Assembly (NCBI GenBank): GCA_022561415.1
Contig: JADFRH010000082.1
Coordinates: 1 to 8,738, forward strand
Source: Planctomycetota bacterium
Lineage (GTDB): Bacteria > Planctomycetota > Phycisphaerae > UBA1845
Length of the DNA stretch: 8,738 bases
Direction of reading: 5' to 3'
A program made the position numbers and the translations under genes. Below, one piece after another: positions 2,548 through 8,738 of this stretch (positions are counted from its first letter, which is position 1; each line of letters opens with the position of its first letter). A model generated the notes under the pieces. The model had not been told where the DNA came from, searched no databases, and saw only the letters and a program-made list of their open reading frames with translations.

Positions 2548-2871
2548 ATGATCGTGGTCAACACCGAATCCATACCAGGGTACCGCCTTCGTGAATCCAA
2601 AGGTCTCGTGCAGGGCAACACGATTCGCGCCAAGCACCTTGGGCGCGACATGGCGGCCGGTCTGAAGAACCTCGTCGGCGGTGAGCTTCGGGGCTACACT
2701 GAACTGCTGATCGAGGCGCGTCGTCAGGCGTTGGAGCGCATGATCGCCCAGGCCGAGCAGCTCGGCGCTAACGCGGTCGTCAATGTTCGCTTCACGACCA
2801 GCGCCATCACGCAAGGGGCGGCCGAGCTCTACGCTTACGGTACGGCCATGGTCGCCGAGCCGGAGGGTTGA
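2548..2871 (+). CDS. YbjQ/UPF0145 (DUF74) family protein, soluble
   Basis: 107 residues, close to the length of E. coli YbjQ. It follows the family layout: an N-terminal strand segment (VVNTESIPGYRLRESKGLVQ, 3-22), the hallmark GLKNLVGGELRGYTELLIEA (38-57, equivalent to the IVGGxxxAYxxxLxxAR signature), then LGANAVVNVRF (72-82) and a C-terminal AELYAYGTAM strand. No signal peptide or membrane segment is seen. The fold is a small alpha/beta pentamer in solved members. The family is sometimes called putative heavy-metal binding, but biochemical function is not established and no Cys/His cluster is present here. It is the first gene of a compact operon, and its 3' end contains the ribosome-binding site of the membrane-anchored paralogue. 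Start ATG 2548 matches homologue lengths, with a weak GAGAGA upstream. Confidence 0.87.
   Translation: MIVVNTESIPGYRLRESKGLVQGNTIRAKHLGRDMAAGLKNLVGGELRGYTELLIEARRQALERMIAQAEQLGANAVVNVRFTTSAITQGAAELYAYGTAMVAEPEG
2862..2866 (+). promoter_or_regulatory. GGAGG ribosome-binding site that fixes the GTG start of the second YbjQ gene
   Basis: GGAGG lies inside the last codons of the first YbjQ gene, nine bases before GTG 2876. It is the only strong Shine-Dalgarno near possible starts of the next gene, so it selects GTG 2876. It also implies translational coupling between the two paralogues. Confidence 0.6.
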
Positions 2872-2875
2872 TCTC

Positions 2876-3352
2876 GTGCCGTGGCCCGTGATCATTCAGA
2901 TCGCACTGCCCGCCGCGCTGCTGATACTCGGATTCTCGATTGGCAGCCTCACGGAGCGCGCCCATTTCAAACGGCTCGCCAAACACGAAGCCGCGCTAAG
3001 CCACATCGTCTTATCCGATCTACGAACGTTTCCCCGACCCGAGGCCTCCGCCCCGTTCGGGCTGGTCACCGGGGAGGTCGTGATCGCGTCGGACTACTTC
3101 AAGACATTCGCGGCGGCGCTGCGCAAGATCGTCGGCGGCGAGCTTCGCGCCTACGAATCGCTGATGGATCGAGCGCGGCGCGAGGCGATGGTGCGCATGT
3201 TGCGGTCGGCCGTGGATATGGGAGCGACCCACGTGGTCAACATTCGCTTCTCGACCAGCAACATCGGAAGCCTGCGGCGGCGCGGGGCGGCGATGGTCGA
3301 GATGTACGCGTACGGCACGGCCATGCGCGCGGCCGATCCCGTGGCGAGTTGA
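2876..3352 (+). CDS. Membrane-anchored YbjQ/UPF0145 paralogue
   Basis: 158 residues from GTG 2876. The start is supported by GGAGG at 2862-2866 and a four-base gap from the previous stop. Residues 5-24 (VIIQIALPAALLILGFSIGS) form a single hydrophobic membrane anchor, followed by a charged linker (about 27-52). A YbjQ domain then occupies about 60-151, with KIVGGELRAYESLMDRARRE (84-103), MGATHVVNIRFSTSNI (115-130) and a closing MYAYGTAM. The domain is clearly paralogous to the upstream gene: the VGGELR-Y block, the xxVVNxRFxTSxI block and the YAYGTAM ending are shared. One gene of the pair thus encodes a soluble form and the other a tethered form, which may co-assemble at the membrane (inference). 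Next is a PrsW-like membrane protein four bases away. Confidence 0.85.
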   Translation: MPWPVIIQIALPAALLILGFSIGSLTERAHFKRLAKHEAALSHIVLSDLRTFPRPEASAPFGLVTGEVVIASDYFKTFAAALRKIVGGELRAYESLMDRARREAMVRMLRSAVDMGATHVVNIRFSTSNIGSLRRRGAAMVEMYAYGTAMRAADPVAS

Positions 3353-3355
3353 TCG

Positions 3356-4225
3356 GTGGCTGACAGCAAACATGATCCGTCGGTCCACGCCGAGCCCCAC
3401 CGGTCCAACCAGTCGCCCACGCCCGACCCGGCAGAACGCAAAGCGCTGCAGCGCCTCGATAGCGAACGGGCCGGCGCCGACCCGGAAGAGGAGCGGGCGA
3501 AGCATTCGATTTTCGACGAGCCGTCGACCCGACCGAATCGAACCTCCATCCTGATCGAACGCGACTGGAGCTGCCGCAACTGCGGCTACAACCTTCGCGG
3601 CCTGATGACCGGACATCCCTGCCCGGAATGCGGCAAGGTCGAGCTCTACGAGCCGCCACGCGAGGGAGAGCTGACCTATCTGGACTGGCTTGCCGTGCAT
3701 CGGTCACTTCCTTCGCTGCGAAAAACGTGGCTCATCGCGATCCTCATGCCCCTGCCGGCCATTCCGTTTGCGATCGGCTGCGCGCTTTTCTCGGTGGAGT
3801 ACGTGGGCTTGATGAGCTTCGTGGTGTTCGCCCCGGCCGCATCCGAAGTGCTCAAGATCGCGATCGCCGCAACGCTGATCGAACGACGCAGCGCGACGAT
3901 CCGCTCGGTCGAGCAGATATTCTGCATGACGATCGGCACGGCGTTGGTGTTTGCGGTCGTGCAGAACGTGATTTGCCTGCGTTTGTTCTTCAAGAACTCG
4001 CCGTTGGATCTCGTGCTCTACCGATGGGTGGTCTGCGTTCTGCTTCACGTCGTGTGTACGATGATCGCCACGCGGGGTCTGGCGTCGGTCTGGCGTCGCG
4101 TGCAGCACGAACATCGCCAGTTTTCGATCACGGCCGCGTTCCCCGGCGTCGCGGTGGCGATCGTCATTCACGCGGTCTACAACGCGTGCGTTTTTTTGAA
4201 CGGGAACTTGGGATATGGATTCTAG
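3356..4225 (+). CDS. Zinc-ribbon, PrsW-like multi-pass membrane protein with altered catalytic motifs
   Basis: 289 residues from GTG 3356, three bases after the previous stop. Residues 1-68 are polar, charged and probably disordered. A zinc ribbon follows: C73-RN-C76-GYNLRGL then C89-PE-C92, a form frequent in planctomycete membrane proteins. From about 123 on there are several hydrophobic segments with the PrsW (CPBP/ABI-like intramembrane protease) motif order. These are FAPAASEVLK (158-167, family EExxK), ALVFAVVQNV (196-205, family GFAxxEN), LLHVVCTMIATRGLA (229-243, family HxxxTxxxGxG) and IHAVYNA (271-277, family HxxxN). Both histidines (231, 272) are kept. The first glutamate of the EE pair is Ser163 and the ExN glutamate is Gln203. 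In Bacillus, PrsW performs site-1 cleavage of an anti-sigma factor; here the changed residues argue against normal peptidase activity. A divergent active enzyme cannot be excluded. No sigma or anti-sigma gene is adjacent. Confidence 0.72.
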   Translation: MADSKHDPSVHAEPHRSNQSPTPDPAERKALQRLDSERAGADPEEERAKHSIFDEPSTRPNRTSILIERDWSCRNCGYNLRGLMTGHPCPECGKVELYEPPREGELTYLDWLAVHRSLPSLRKTWLIAILMPLPAIPFAIGCALFSVEYVGLMSFVVFAPAASEVLKIAIAATLIERRSATIRSVEQIFCMTIGTALVFAVVQNVICLRLFFKNSPLDLVLYRWVVCVLLHVVCTMIATRGLASVWRRVQHEHRQFSITAAFPGVAVAIVIHAVYNACVFLNGNLGYGF

Positions 4226-5811: not shown

Positions 5812-6384
5812 TCACATGCGTAAGAAGTTTCCGAGCAGCGTCGGGCCTTCCTCGGTCAAAAAGCTCTCGGGGTGAAACTGCACGCCTTCGATCGGCATGG
5901 TCTTGTGGCGGATGCCCATCAGCTCGTCGCGGTCCGCTGTCCAGGCGGTGACGTCGAACTCGCTTGGCAGGGTCGCACGCTCGATCGTCAGCGAGTGATA
6001 GCGTGTGGCCGTGAACGGATTGGTCAGGTCGCGAAAAACGCCCCGGCCGTCGTGCTTGATTTCGCTCGTCTTGCCGTGCATGAGCCGCTTGGCACGCACG
6101 ATTTTTCCGCCGAAGGCCTGGCCGATGCACTGATGACCGAGACACACACCGAGAATCGGCACCTTCCCGGCGAAGCGCGTAACGAGTTCGACGCTGATCC
6201 CGGCCTCGTTGGGCGTACACGGCCCAGGCGAAATGATGATGTGCCGCGGCTTCATCGCGGCCAGCTCGTCGAGCGTGGCCGCATCGTTACGCACCACCTT
6301 CATCTCGCGCTCGACGCCCAGCCCCCCGATCGTCTGCACGAGGTTGTAGGTAAACGAGTCGTAGTTATCGATAATGAGGATCAC
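5812..6384 (-). CDS. trpG: Glutamine amidotransferase subunit of anthranilate / aminodeoxychorismate synthase
   Basis: 190 residues from GTG 6384-6382. It starts ILIIDNYDSFTYNLVQ, the universal N-terminus of TrpG/PabA. The class I amidotransferase triad is complete: Cys81 in GVCLGHQ (79-85), and His171 and Glu173 in GVQFHPES (167-174). IISPGPCTPNEAG (50-62) and LMHGKTSEIKHDG (101-113) are further family signatures. The enzyme releases ammonia from glutamine and channels it to TrpE (anthranilate, tryptophan synthesis) or PabB (aminodeoxychorismate, folate synthesis), in the cytoplasm. In many bacteria one copy serves both, and sequence alone does not separate trpG from pabA. No trpE, pabB, trpD or trpC is adjacent, so this is a solo copy and a dual role is plausible. 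The start has no Shine-Dalgarno but lies seven bases after a good -10. Confidence 0.9.
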   Translation of the reverse strand: MILIIDNYDSFTYNLVQTIGGLGVEREMKVVRNDAATLDELAAMKPRHIIISPGPCTPNEAGISVELVTRFAGKVPILGVCLGHQCIGQAFGGKIVRAKRLMHGKTSEIKHDGRGVFRDLTNPFTATRYHSLTIERATLPSEFDVTAWTADRDELMGIRHKTMPIEGVQFHPESFLTEEGPTLLGNFLRM

Positions 6385-6391
6385 GAGAGTC

Positions 6392-6420
6392 AATCTAGCT
6401 GAGCGGGGGCGTTTCCTCAA
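6392..6420 (-). promoter_or_regulatory. Promoter of trpG/pabA positioned for a leaderless transcript
   Basis: On the complement, TTGAGG (6420-6415), 17 bases, then TAGATT (6397-6392). Both hexamers match consensus at 4 of 6, with optimal spacing. Only seven bases (GACTCTC) separate the -10 from the GTG start at 6384, so transcription would begin at or within a base or two of the start codon. No Shine-Dalgarno exists in those seven bases, which fits leaderless translation. An in-frame TTG at 6393 overlaps the -10 and is an unlikely start. Confidence 0.45.
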
Positions 6421-6591
6421 GGGTCACCCCGCCGAAGCAGCCAACGCCCTGTAGGCATCGACAAGTCACGACAACGTTTCGCCGGATTCCGTGACGGTAT
6501 CGCAGCTTGTCCGCCGTCTGGTATCGAGGTGCGTCGTGCCGCGGCGCTCCCGAAGCGGTTGTGCGAACCGTACGTGGATATGATTCTCCAA

Positions 6592-6597
6592 AAAGGA
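6592..6597 (+). promoter_or_regulatory. Ribosome-binding site of the aspartic protease gene
   Basis: AAAGGA lies six bases upstream of ATG 6604. It favours this start over in-frame codons back to 6529. The shorter protein begins directly with a signal peptide. Confidence 0.6.
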
Positions 6598-6603
6598 AAA
6601 ACC

Positions 6604-7575
6604 ATGCAAATTTCAAGCCTCTTGGTTCTGGTGTCGTTCGTATGGATGCCGCTCAACGCGATGGCCGTCGAGGATTCTTCCTCGCTGCCCGCACCGCCCA
6701 AGAAATCCGAGCTTACCGGCTCCAAGGTGTCCGTGCCCATGGACTTGGACTCACCCCGACCGATCATCTCCGCCAAGATAAACGGAAAGGGTCCGTTCCA
6801 ACTTATCTTTGATACAGGATGCGATGGGATGGTCGTAATGAAAGGGCTGGCCAGTCAGCTCAATCTCCCCGTAACCGGAAAAGCACATATGGGAGACCCA
6901 TCCAATCCGAAGGCCATCGAGGTGGATCGCGTTTCAATTCAAGAACTTACGATCGGCGGCGCGACCTTCCGGGACCTGGAAGCGGATTCGTGGGACGCAC
7001 CCCCCGGCTTTCTGCACGGAATGAACGATGTTCGGGGCATCATTGGCCTGCCCGTATTTTCGCAGTTCCTGGTAACGTTCGATTACGCCAACGGACGGAT
7101 GACTCTCGAACGCGGAGCGCTGCCCGAGGCCGATGGCGGAGAGGTTCTCGACTATGAGACGAAAGATGGAGGAAGCATCCCGTTGATTCCGCTGTCGGTC
7201 GGCGGCGTGGCGATGCGTGCGCACATCGACTCCGGCGCACCGGGCGAAATAACGCTGCCGGAGAACATTCAGAGTCGCCTCAAACTCATGGGCAACCCCG
7301 TCGTCGTCGGCCACGCGAGAACGGTCAATAGTGAGTTCGACATACTGGCGGCCACGCTCGATGGCGACCTGCGCATCGGCCGACACGTGTTCGAAAGGCC
7401 CAGCTTGAAATTCATCGACATGCTCAACGACGCAGGCGTCGGCAATATTGGGTCCGCCTTGCTTCGCCAATTCCACGTCACGTTCGATCAGAAAAACAAG
7501 CGTATCCGATTCGCCAATCGAACGAAAACAGCGTCGGCCGCCCCGTCACACATCGGGCACCACCTGGGTGGATAG
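6604..7575 (+). CDS. Exported retropepsin-like aspartic protease with two lobes
   Basis: 323 residues from ATG 6604. MQISSLLVLVSFVWMPLNAMA is a signal peptide with a probable AMA-V cleavage at about 21. Two pepsin-like half-domains follow. Lobe 1 has FDTGCDG (69-75) and the closing RGIIGLPVFSQFLVTFDY (144-161). Lobe 2 has HIDSGAPGE (207-215) and GNIGSALLRQFHVTFDQ (280-296). The catalytic aspartates would be D70 and D209, one from each lobe. The second motif (DSGA) is canonical; the first has Cys where Ala or Ser is usual (DTGC). The hydrophobic-hydrophobic-Gly strand expected downstream of each DTG/DSG is present. This matches the bacterial 'aspartyl protease / retropepsin-like' (Asp_protease_2) group; no PDZ domain is attached. 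The substrate is unknown and it probably acts in the periplasm. It is divergent from trpG across 219 bases and convergent with the HemW chimera. Confidence 0.8.
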   Translation: MQISSLLVLVSFVWMPLNAMAVEDSSSLPAPPKKSELTGSKVSVPMDLDSPRPIISAKINGKGPFQLIFDTGCDGMVVMKGLASQLNLPVTGKAHMGDPSNPKAIEVDRVSIQELTIGGATFRDLEADSWDAPPGFLHGMNDVRGIIGLPVFSQFLVTFDYANGRMTLERGALPEADGGEVLDYETKDGGSIPLIPLSVGGVAMRAHIDSGAPGEITLPENIQSRLKLMGNPVVVGHARTVNSEFDILAATLDGDLRIGRHVFERPSLKFIDMLNDAGVGNIGSALLRQFHVTFDQKNKRIRFANRTKTASAAPSHIGHHLGG

Positions 7576-7628: not shown

Positions 7629-8738
7629 TTACCGCAAGATCGTCGGCGCTAACCGCGGGTCCTTTGCCGGTTCGCTTGCGAGCACAAGTTCACGCATCAC
7701 CGCATCGCTCACGAGCCGACCGTCTTGCGTCAGGGCGATGTGTGTGTCGGACACCGTGAGGACTCCTCGTCGCTTCAGGTCGTCGAGCGTTGTTCCGAAC
7801 AAACCAACCGGGTCCATCCCGGTTCGATGGCGGAAGGACTCGATGGAAAGGCCCTCCACGAGCCGAAGCTGCATCATCACCATCTCGGTGATGAGTTTTT
7901 CGGTGTCAATCGTCTCGCTCTCAGCCTCGGCGTGGCCGTGCTCGTCCATCGTGCGAATGTATCCAGCGACGTCGGCCACATTCTTGTATCGCCGACCGTC
8001 CAAGCAACCGACTGCCGACGGTCCGACCCCGATGTACGGCTGGTTTCGCCAGTAGATCAGGTTGTGCTCGCTTCGACATCCGGGCTTGGCGAAGTTGCTC
8101 GTTTCGTATTGTTCGTAGCCCGCTGTGGTGAGCGTGCTCACCATGCGCTCGAACATGTCGGCTTCGAGATTCTCGTCGCATGGTTTGATCTTGCCAGCGC
8201 GACGCATGGCCGTGAGCACCGTGCCGGGCTCGTACATCAAACCGTAGCAGGCGATGTGATCCGGCTCGAGTTCGATGGCGCGGCTGAGCGATTGTGACCA
8301 GGTGCCGAGCGTCTGCCCGGGGATTCCAAAGATCAGATCGAGGTTGATCTGCAATACGCCGGCTCGACGAAGCGTGGCCACCGACGGCGCAATGTCATCC
8401 GGCGAGTGGATGCGTTCGAGCGTCGCAAGCTCTTCCGGAAAAAACGACTGCGCCCCCATCGACACACGCGTGACGCCCTGGCTCACAAGCAGTTCCGCTT
8501 TCTCGGCATCGACGGTCGCGGGATTGGCCTCGACCGTAAACTCATCGATGCGATCCACCAGCTTGAAGATCCCGCTAGCCGCCTCGCTGATCCGCTCGGC
8601 GAGCATATAGGCCGGGGTAGTGACGATGCGGTGCTCGAAATCGACCACGATATCGTCGACCTTGCAGGCACGGTGTAGGCCACCCATGGCGCTGATCGCC
8701 CCGGACACCGCCGGGTCATGACCTACCGTCACCGCGAT
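7629..8738 (-). CDS. hemW: Chimeric ORF: ElbB-like C-terminus fused in frame to HemW lacking its radical-SAM N-terminus (partial, runs off window)
   Basis: The frame is open from the window edge to TAA at 7631-7629. Numbering is from GTG 8732. Residues 63-367 are HemW (oxygen-independent coproporphyrinogen III oxidase-like, a heme chaperone). Matching signatures are DEFTVEANPATV (63-74), GVTRVSMGAQSF (86-97), INLDLIFGIPGQT (129-141), GYEQYETSNFAKPG (205-218), the HNxxYW element HNLIYW (223-228), and a winged-helix-like C-terminal part. E. coli HemW has about 95 further residues before this point, containing HIPxCxxxCxYC (4Fe-4S/SAM ligands) and GGGTP. They are absent: residues 1-62 and the preceding in-frame codons instead match the end of ElbB. 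I checked the other two frames of 8547-8738 and found no CxxxCxxC. Without the cluster the protein should not do radical-SAM chemistry. An intact copy may exist elsewhere. The HemW identity is very secure; functionality is doubtful. Confidence 0.85.
   Translation of the reverse strand: MAVTVGHDPAVSGAISAMGGLHRACKVDDIVVDFEHRIVTTPAYMLAERISEAASGIFKLVDRIDEFTVEANPATVDAEKAELLVSQGVTRVSMGAQSFFPEELATLERIHSPDDIAPSVATLRRAGVLQINLDLIFGIPGQTLGTWSQSLSRAIELEPDHIACYGLMYEPGTVLTAMRRAGKIKPCDENLEADMFERMVSTLTTAGYEQYETSNFAKPGCRSEHNLIYWRNQPYIGVGPSAVGCLDGRRYKNVADVAGYIRTMDEHGHAEAESETIDTEKLITEMVMMQLRLVEGLSIESFRHRTGMDPVGLFGTTLDDLKRRGVLTVSDTHIALTQDGRLVSDAVMRELVLASEPAKDPRLAPTILR
8547..8738 (-). other. elbB: C-terminal fragment of ElbB-like (DJ-1/PfpI superfamily) protein
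   Basis: The 64 codons before the HemW part read VTVGHDPAVSGAISAMGG, then CKVDDIVVDFEHRIVTTPAY, then MLAERISEAASGIFKLVDRI. E. coli ElbB ends with a strikingly similar segment: VDDIVVDEDNKIVTTPAYML followed by AQNIAEAASGIDKLVSRV and a few residues before its stop. ElbB is an isoprenoid-biosynthesis-linked protein with glyoxalase III-like activity. The upstream portion with the nucleophile cysteine lies outside the window, so the ElbB part may be full length. The join is at about 8541-8552, where KLVDRI gives way to DEFTVEANP. ElbB would thus have lost only its stop and last few residues, while HemW lost its first ~95. Confidence 0.75.

Follow-up and report, generated by a model that had tools for sequence, protein, structure and literature searches.

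HemW, a heme chaperone of the radical SAM family (profile TIGR00539), carries, in its N-terminal part of about 96 residues, the motifs CxxxCxxC and GGGTP, which were found in 123 and 132, respectively, of the 137 long proteins compared in this work (a number that includes the protein recorded for the locus described here). ElbB, represented by the NCBIfam profile NF008747 (isoprenoid biosynthesis glyoxalase), is a protein of about 220 residues. A literature search found no paper in which ElbB is treated together with HemW. Sequences from different organisms can also be brought together on metagenomic contigs. In the part of a simulation study drawn on here (PMC3100316), cross-species chimeric contigs appeared in noticeable number; two of the four assemblers mostly joined sequences of one genus or species, and the remaining two formed chimeras at the rank of family or deeper.

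The window, i.e., the whole stretch of 8,738 nucleotides that was analysed, ends in a minus-strand frame of 369 codons without a stop (7629-8738) that continues past the window end. Table 1 lists the features of this region. A profile search with this open reading frame (ORF) matched residues 2-66 to the C-terminus of ElbB (NF008747 positions 151-215 of 218, E 6e-19) and residues 41-340 to the HemW profile TIGR00539 (positions 61-358 of 361, 237 bits with a cut-off of 205 bits). The first-pass annotation, which had read the locus as an in-frame ElbB::HemW chimera, was right in this respect, as both families are found in one open frame. A full-length match to NF008747 was not obtained for the ORF (68.8 bits with a cut-off of 180 bits); of the roughly 220 ElbB residues, the window contains no more than the final 66 (the C-terminal 30%), and whatever else there might be of the near-complete ElbB proposed in the annotation would fall beyond it. 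The segment 8536-8738 also matched the ElbB-family solved structures 1oy1 and 1vhq (E 6e-16). On the HemW side, the profile match of a relative, P0003, covers positions 3-359 with 320 bits, and similarity to hemW at the DNA level starts at about residue 60 of the ORF. The HemN_C domain (PF06969, E 8e-16) is present at the C-terminus. The annotation had also described CxxxCxxC and GGGTP as gone and the HNxxYW element as kept, and a motif search agreed: the first two are missing from the ORF, and the third is present as HNLIYW. The protein is recorded as P0001, whose cluster consists of three member sequences from one contig; the other two members may carry the join too, a point against an artificial origin.

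Table 1. Features of the window at and near the join between elbB-like and hemW-like sequences.
Feature	Position	Strand	Basis
Foreign piece of 66 codons from the 3′ end of a Halomonas-like elbB, truncated at the window end	8541-8738	-	DNA and protein identity
19-base stretch common to both sources, site of the join	8541-8559	-	Base comparison with L031, L030 and L005
3′ part of a planctomycete hemW without the N-terminal ~96 residues (cluster motif)	7629-8540	-	Protein and DNA matches
Aspartyl-protease-like ORF between hemW and trpG of the window	6529-7575	+	Pfam PF13650, E 7e-19
trpG-like glutamine amidotransferase	5812-6420	-	Pfam GATase, E 2e-61; 82% identity in L005

The amino acid sequence of the whole ORF was compared with other proteins in a search that scored 7998 candidates sharing most words. 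Among the best 120 of 2505 matches, the closest other proteins were HemWs of 404 residues, namely P0002 (88% identity, 85% of the query covered) and P0003 (93% identity, 79% covered), and those naming an organism (P0024, P0025, P0053, P0062 and P0119) were all from Phycisphaerae or Planctomycetota. Within the planctomycete order, the 1110-base DNA of the ORF was matched by 101 of 114 genomes when three candidates were scored per genome. The surroundings are also of this type. In the planctomycete loci L001-L005, trpG is found close behind hemW in the same order and on the same strand, and the window has the two genes in this order as well, with the aspartyl-protease-like ORF between them. The hemW genes of four of these loci (L001, L002, L004 and L005) have the N-terminal cluster motif, located upstream of the point at which the window switches. 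Since the order with trpG is kept and the motif of the relatives lies upstream of the switch, the hemW side resembles a normal planctomycete locus that has been truncated. Seven further ORFs of the window had no match in the fetched loci at E 1e-8, a result of little weight because these loci cover at most 3 kb on each side.

The remaining part of the ORF has a different origin. With bases numbered on the reverse complement (base 1 is window position 8738), a Halomonas salipaludis locus, L031, shares 95% DNA identity with the window over bases 1-198 and is unrelated from there on. Across the five genomes compared from this genus the identity ranged from 89 to 95%, and the match ended at base 198 in four of them and at base 199 in the other. 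At the protein level, residues 1-66 share 97% identity with P0121 and 95% with P0122 (Halomonas sp. 1513), both ordinary ElbBs of 219-220 residues. Named matches to this part, among the best 120 of 253, belong to Halomonas, to its close kin or to broader gammaproteobacterial or Pseudomonadota labels, with the exception of one labelled marine sediment metagenome. When positions 8400-8738 were compared with plasmid records, the sole match came from Halomonas and ended at base 191, short of the join. The GC contents of the two parts are alike (0.631 and 0.606), so base composition gives no sign of a foreign piece, which counts against an artificial join.

The join, which the annotation had put near 8545, was placed at 8541-8559, and the switch occurs 198 bases short of the window end. 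The 19-base word at this place is identical in the Halomonas-type loci L031 and L030 (19/19) and nearly so in the planctomycete locus L005 (18/19). When L031 and L005 were compared on both strands, it was the only 19-base window with at least 18 matches. Other planctomycete hemW loci compared match the word less well, i.e., it is not conserved there, and the proteins P0002 and P0003 differ at the word, observations that count against an artificial join through a shared word. Among the 114 genomes of the planctomycete order, all matches extending beyond base 198 start at base 176 or later, and the Halomonas matches end at base 198 or 199; therefore, the overlap between the two sources is confined to about bases 180-198. 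Three planctomycete matches lie wholly before the join, ending by base 137 (in G034, G061 and G062), and in G061 and G062 this match is the genome's own elbB and the sole match.

The annotation had suggested looking for the same fusion in relatives, and none was found in the other proteins listed or in the genomes searched. A contig scan with six peptide patterns from the whole ORF returned 48 loci, none of which covers the whole ORF. Sixteen are gammaproteobacterial ElbBs (Halomonas and its kin, and Xenorhabdus) that match residues 1-67 or, in one case each, extend to residue 68, 75 or 87. In the remaining 32 the match is to the HemW part, starting between residues 26 and 65, and the twelve best of these carry planctomycete or Phycisphaerae titles. 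No match crosses the join in the 114 planctomycete-order genomes, with three candidates scored per genome. A protein that truly spans the join should rank near the top in a search with residues 25-110. In this search the window's own P0001 scored E 7e-46 and the next protein 8e-19 (best 120 of 660), and no other protein spanning the join was present among the matches listed for this stretch, for the whole ORF (best 120 of 2505) or for the ElbB part (best 120 of 253). Words of HemW and ElbB occur together only in P0001 among 264 proteins compared. Six HemWs that cover 93-98% of the join stretch (P0069, P0113, P0242, P0245, P0252 and P0253) were considered as further fusions and discarded; all of them start as HemW and are free of the ElbB words tested. 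P0253 alone among the six is without CxxxCxxC, because its listed start is downstream of the motif. P0242, labelled as a Burkholderiales metagenome-assembled genome, is a HemW match that does not name a planctomycete.

These results point to an artificial join, produced in assembly or as a library chimera, rather than to a new protein or a deletion scar, and from the sequence comparisons we give this reading a probability of about 0.94. Of the two origins offered in the annotation, an assembly join or a deletion scar, the former is thus favoured by the two sources and the sharp switch, and the latter is disfavoured by halves that belong to different phyla. In this reading, the last 198 bases are the end of an elbB from a Halomonas-like gammaproteobacterium, and the rest of the ORF is hemW from a planctomycete of the Phycisphaerae type. 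By coincidence, both genomes probably contain, in the same reading frame, the roughly 19-base word at 8541-8559, and the crossing from one genome to the other would have been made there, either by an assembler or by template switching in the library. Common short-read assemblers work with words whose minimum length is close to nineteen bases. As expected of a chimera, two taxonomic sources were found to meet in an abrupt switch at a common word, which is exact on the Halomonas side and matched at 18 of 19 positions on the planctomycete side in L005 only. That the window's own planctomycete has the same word is something we infer, because other planctomycete loci match it less well. The joining step would likewise have occurred in a computer or a tube and not in a cell. 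A point against an artificial join is that it would connect two phyla, unlike the chimeras of two of the assemblers in the part of the simulation study drawn on here, most of which joined members of one genus or species (PMC3100316).

The best surviving alternative, which we regard as very unlikely, is a real recombination in a planctomycete, in which an illegitimate event at a short shared word linked hemW to an elbB newly acquired from Halomonas, resulting in an ElbB-HemW protein or in a dead hemW. The frame is open, and microhomology such as that present here is possible at a true non-homologous junction. ElbB does occur in planctomycetes: searches detected it in 54 of the order's 114 genomes, with 43-53% identity to P0121. 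However, three things would have to coincide: the transfer between phyla must be very recent (95% DNA identity), recombination must have taken place in hemW, and the contig must happen to end 198 bases further on. In addition, the cluster part of hemW is lost and the arrangement is absent from every relative searched. Slightly less probable still is its version at the level of a planctomycete population, in which the end of elbB, or the whole gene, was fused at a microhomology of about 19 bases to a cluster-less HemW core after a very recent transfer from Halomonas; the two-domain protein might then bind heme but not an iron-sulfur cluster. If real, the locus would represent a cross-phylum gene fusion in which the catalytic cluster of HemW was removed. 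The opposite direction, a Halomonas-like genome that took up a planctomycete hemW-trpG region at the end of its elbB, is very improbable; nothing favours it except the join itself, and the match ends at the join in the Halomonas-type loci that were compared.

The distribution of ElbB in planctomycetes also bears on the deletion scar, for which elbB would once have stood upstream of hemW in the same genome. ElbB and a match to the hemW side coexist in 45 of the 54 ElbB-bearing genomes, which is in favour of this possibility. In these genomes, however, a comparison of places by eye located elbB on a different contig from hemW in 39, which is weak evidence because contigs are often short, and more than 100 kb away from it in the other six. 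Furthermore, only one of the 15 genomes carrying L001-L015 has ElbB. Identity to P0121 is 43-53% for planctomycete ElbBs, and the window piece shares 95-97% with P0121 and Halomonas, so this piece is unlike a planctomycete elbB. A deletion scar was rejected, because a Halomonas-like elbB end (95% DNA identity) and a planctomycete hemW, which have different phylum-level sources, would not be joined by a deletion within one genome.

Open frames of 604 codons around ElbB in two planctomycete genomes were inspected as candidates for a further fusion and rejected, since the ElbB frame extends backwards there across a portion of an opposite-strand gene. In L072 (826-2517) and L073 (1394-3085), ElbB lies inside an ORF of 563 codons that runs antisense through part of another gene, presumably CbiM-like. 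A gene caller could mistake such an ORF for a fusion.

Other regions of the window contain features of separate interest. Near the other end of the window, positions 211-480 of the plus strand encode a piece of about 75 codons, corresponding to the N-terminus of an apparent protein of about 1000 residues, which we take to be an FAD-type oxidoreductase, and ended by a stop at 480. The piece has no match in Pfam or among solved structures. It is matched in 31 of 61 Halomonas-family genomes, with a best identity of up to 65%, and in 92 of 114 planctomycete genomes, with 35-57% identity; many of these matches, in both groups, sit in open frames of about 1000 codons. The GC content of bases 1-400 of the window is 0.682, the highest among 400-base steps. 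This piece may represent a pseudogene; alternatively, another artificial join may explain it. Two adjacent plus-strand ORFs (2548-3352) each match the YbjQ family (PF01906), and the second has an N-terminal extension of about 80 residues that, judged by eye, may hold a membrane segment. They are followed on the same strand (3356-4225) by a PrsW-like membrane protease (PF13367), for which all N-terminal zinc-ribbon matches were under the cut-offs.

The locus serves mainly as a caution that, through a short word shared at a contig end, two well-known families can become fused in one open frame, and that the product is then recorded as a protein, in this case P0001. Compared with ElbB, residues 1-66 of the ORF are nearly the same as those of P0121 and Halomonas sp. 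1513, but the ORF reads on into HemW, while P0121 and P0122 stop four residues later. Compared with HemW, the ORF is of the ordinary planctomycete type from about residue 62 (88% and 93% identity to P0002 and P0003), but foreign sequence takes the place of the N-terminal region that holds CxxxCxxC and GGGTP. Compared with the cross-species chimeric contigs of metagenomes, the window case involves two phyla and is known from assembled sequence, and it resembles them in that two taxonomic sources meet at a short shared word near the end of a contig.
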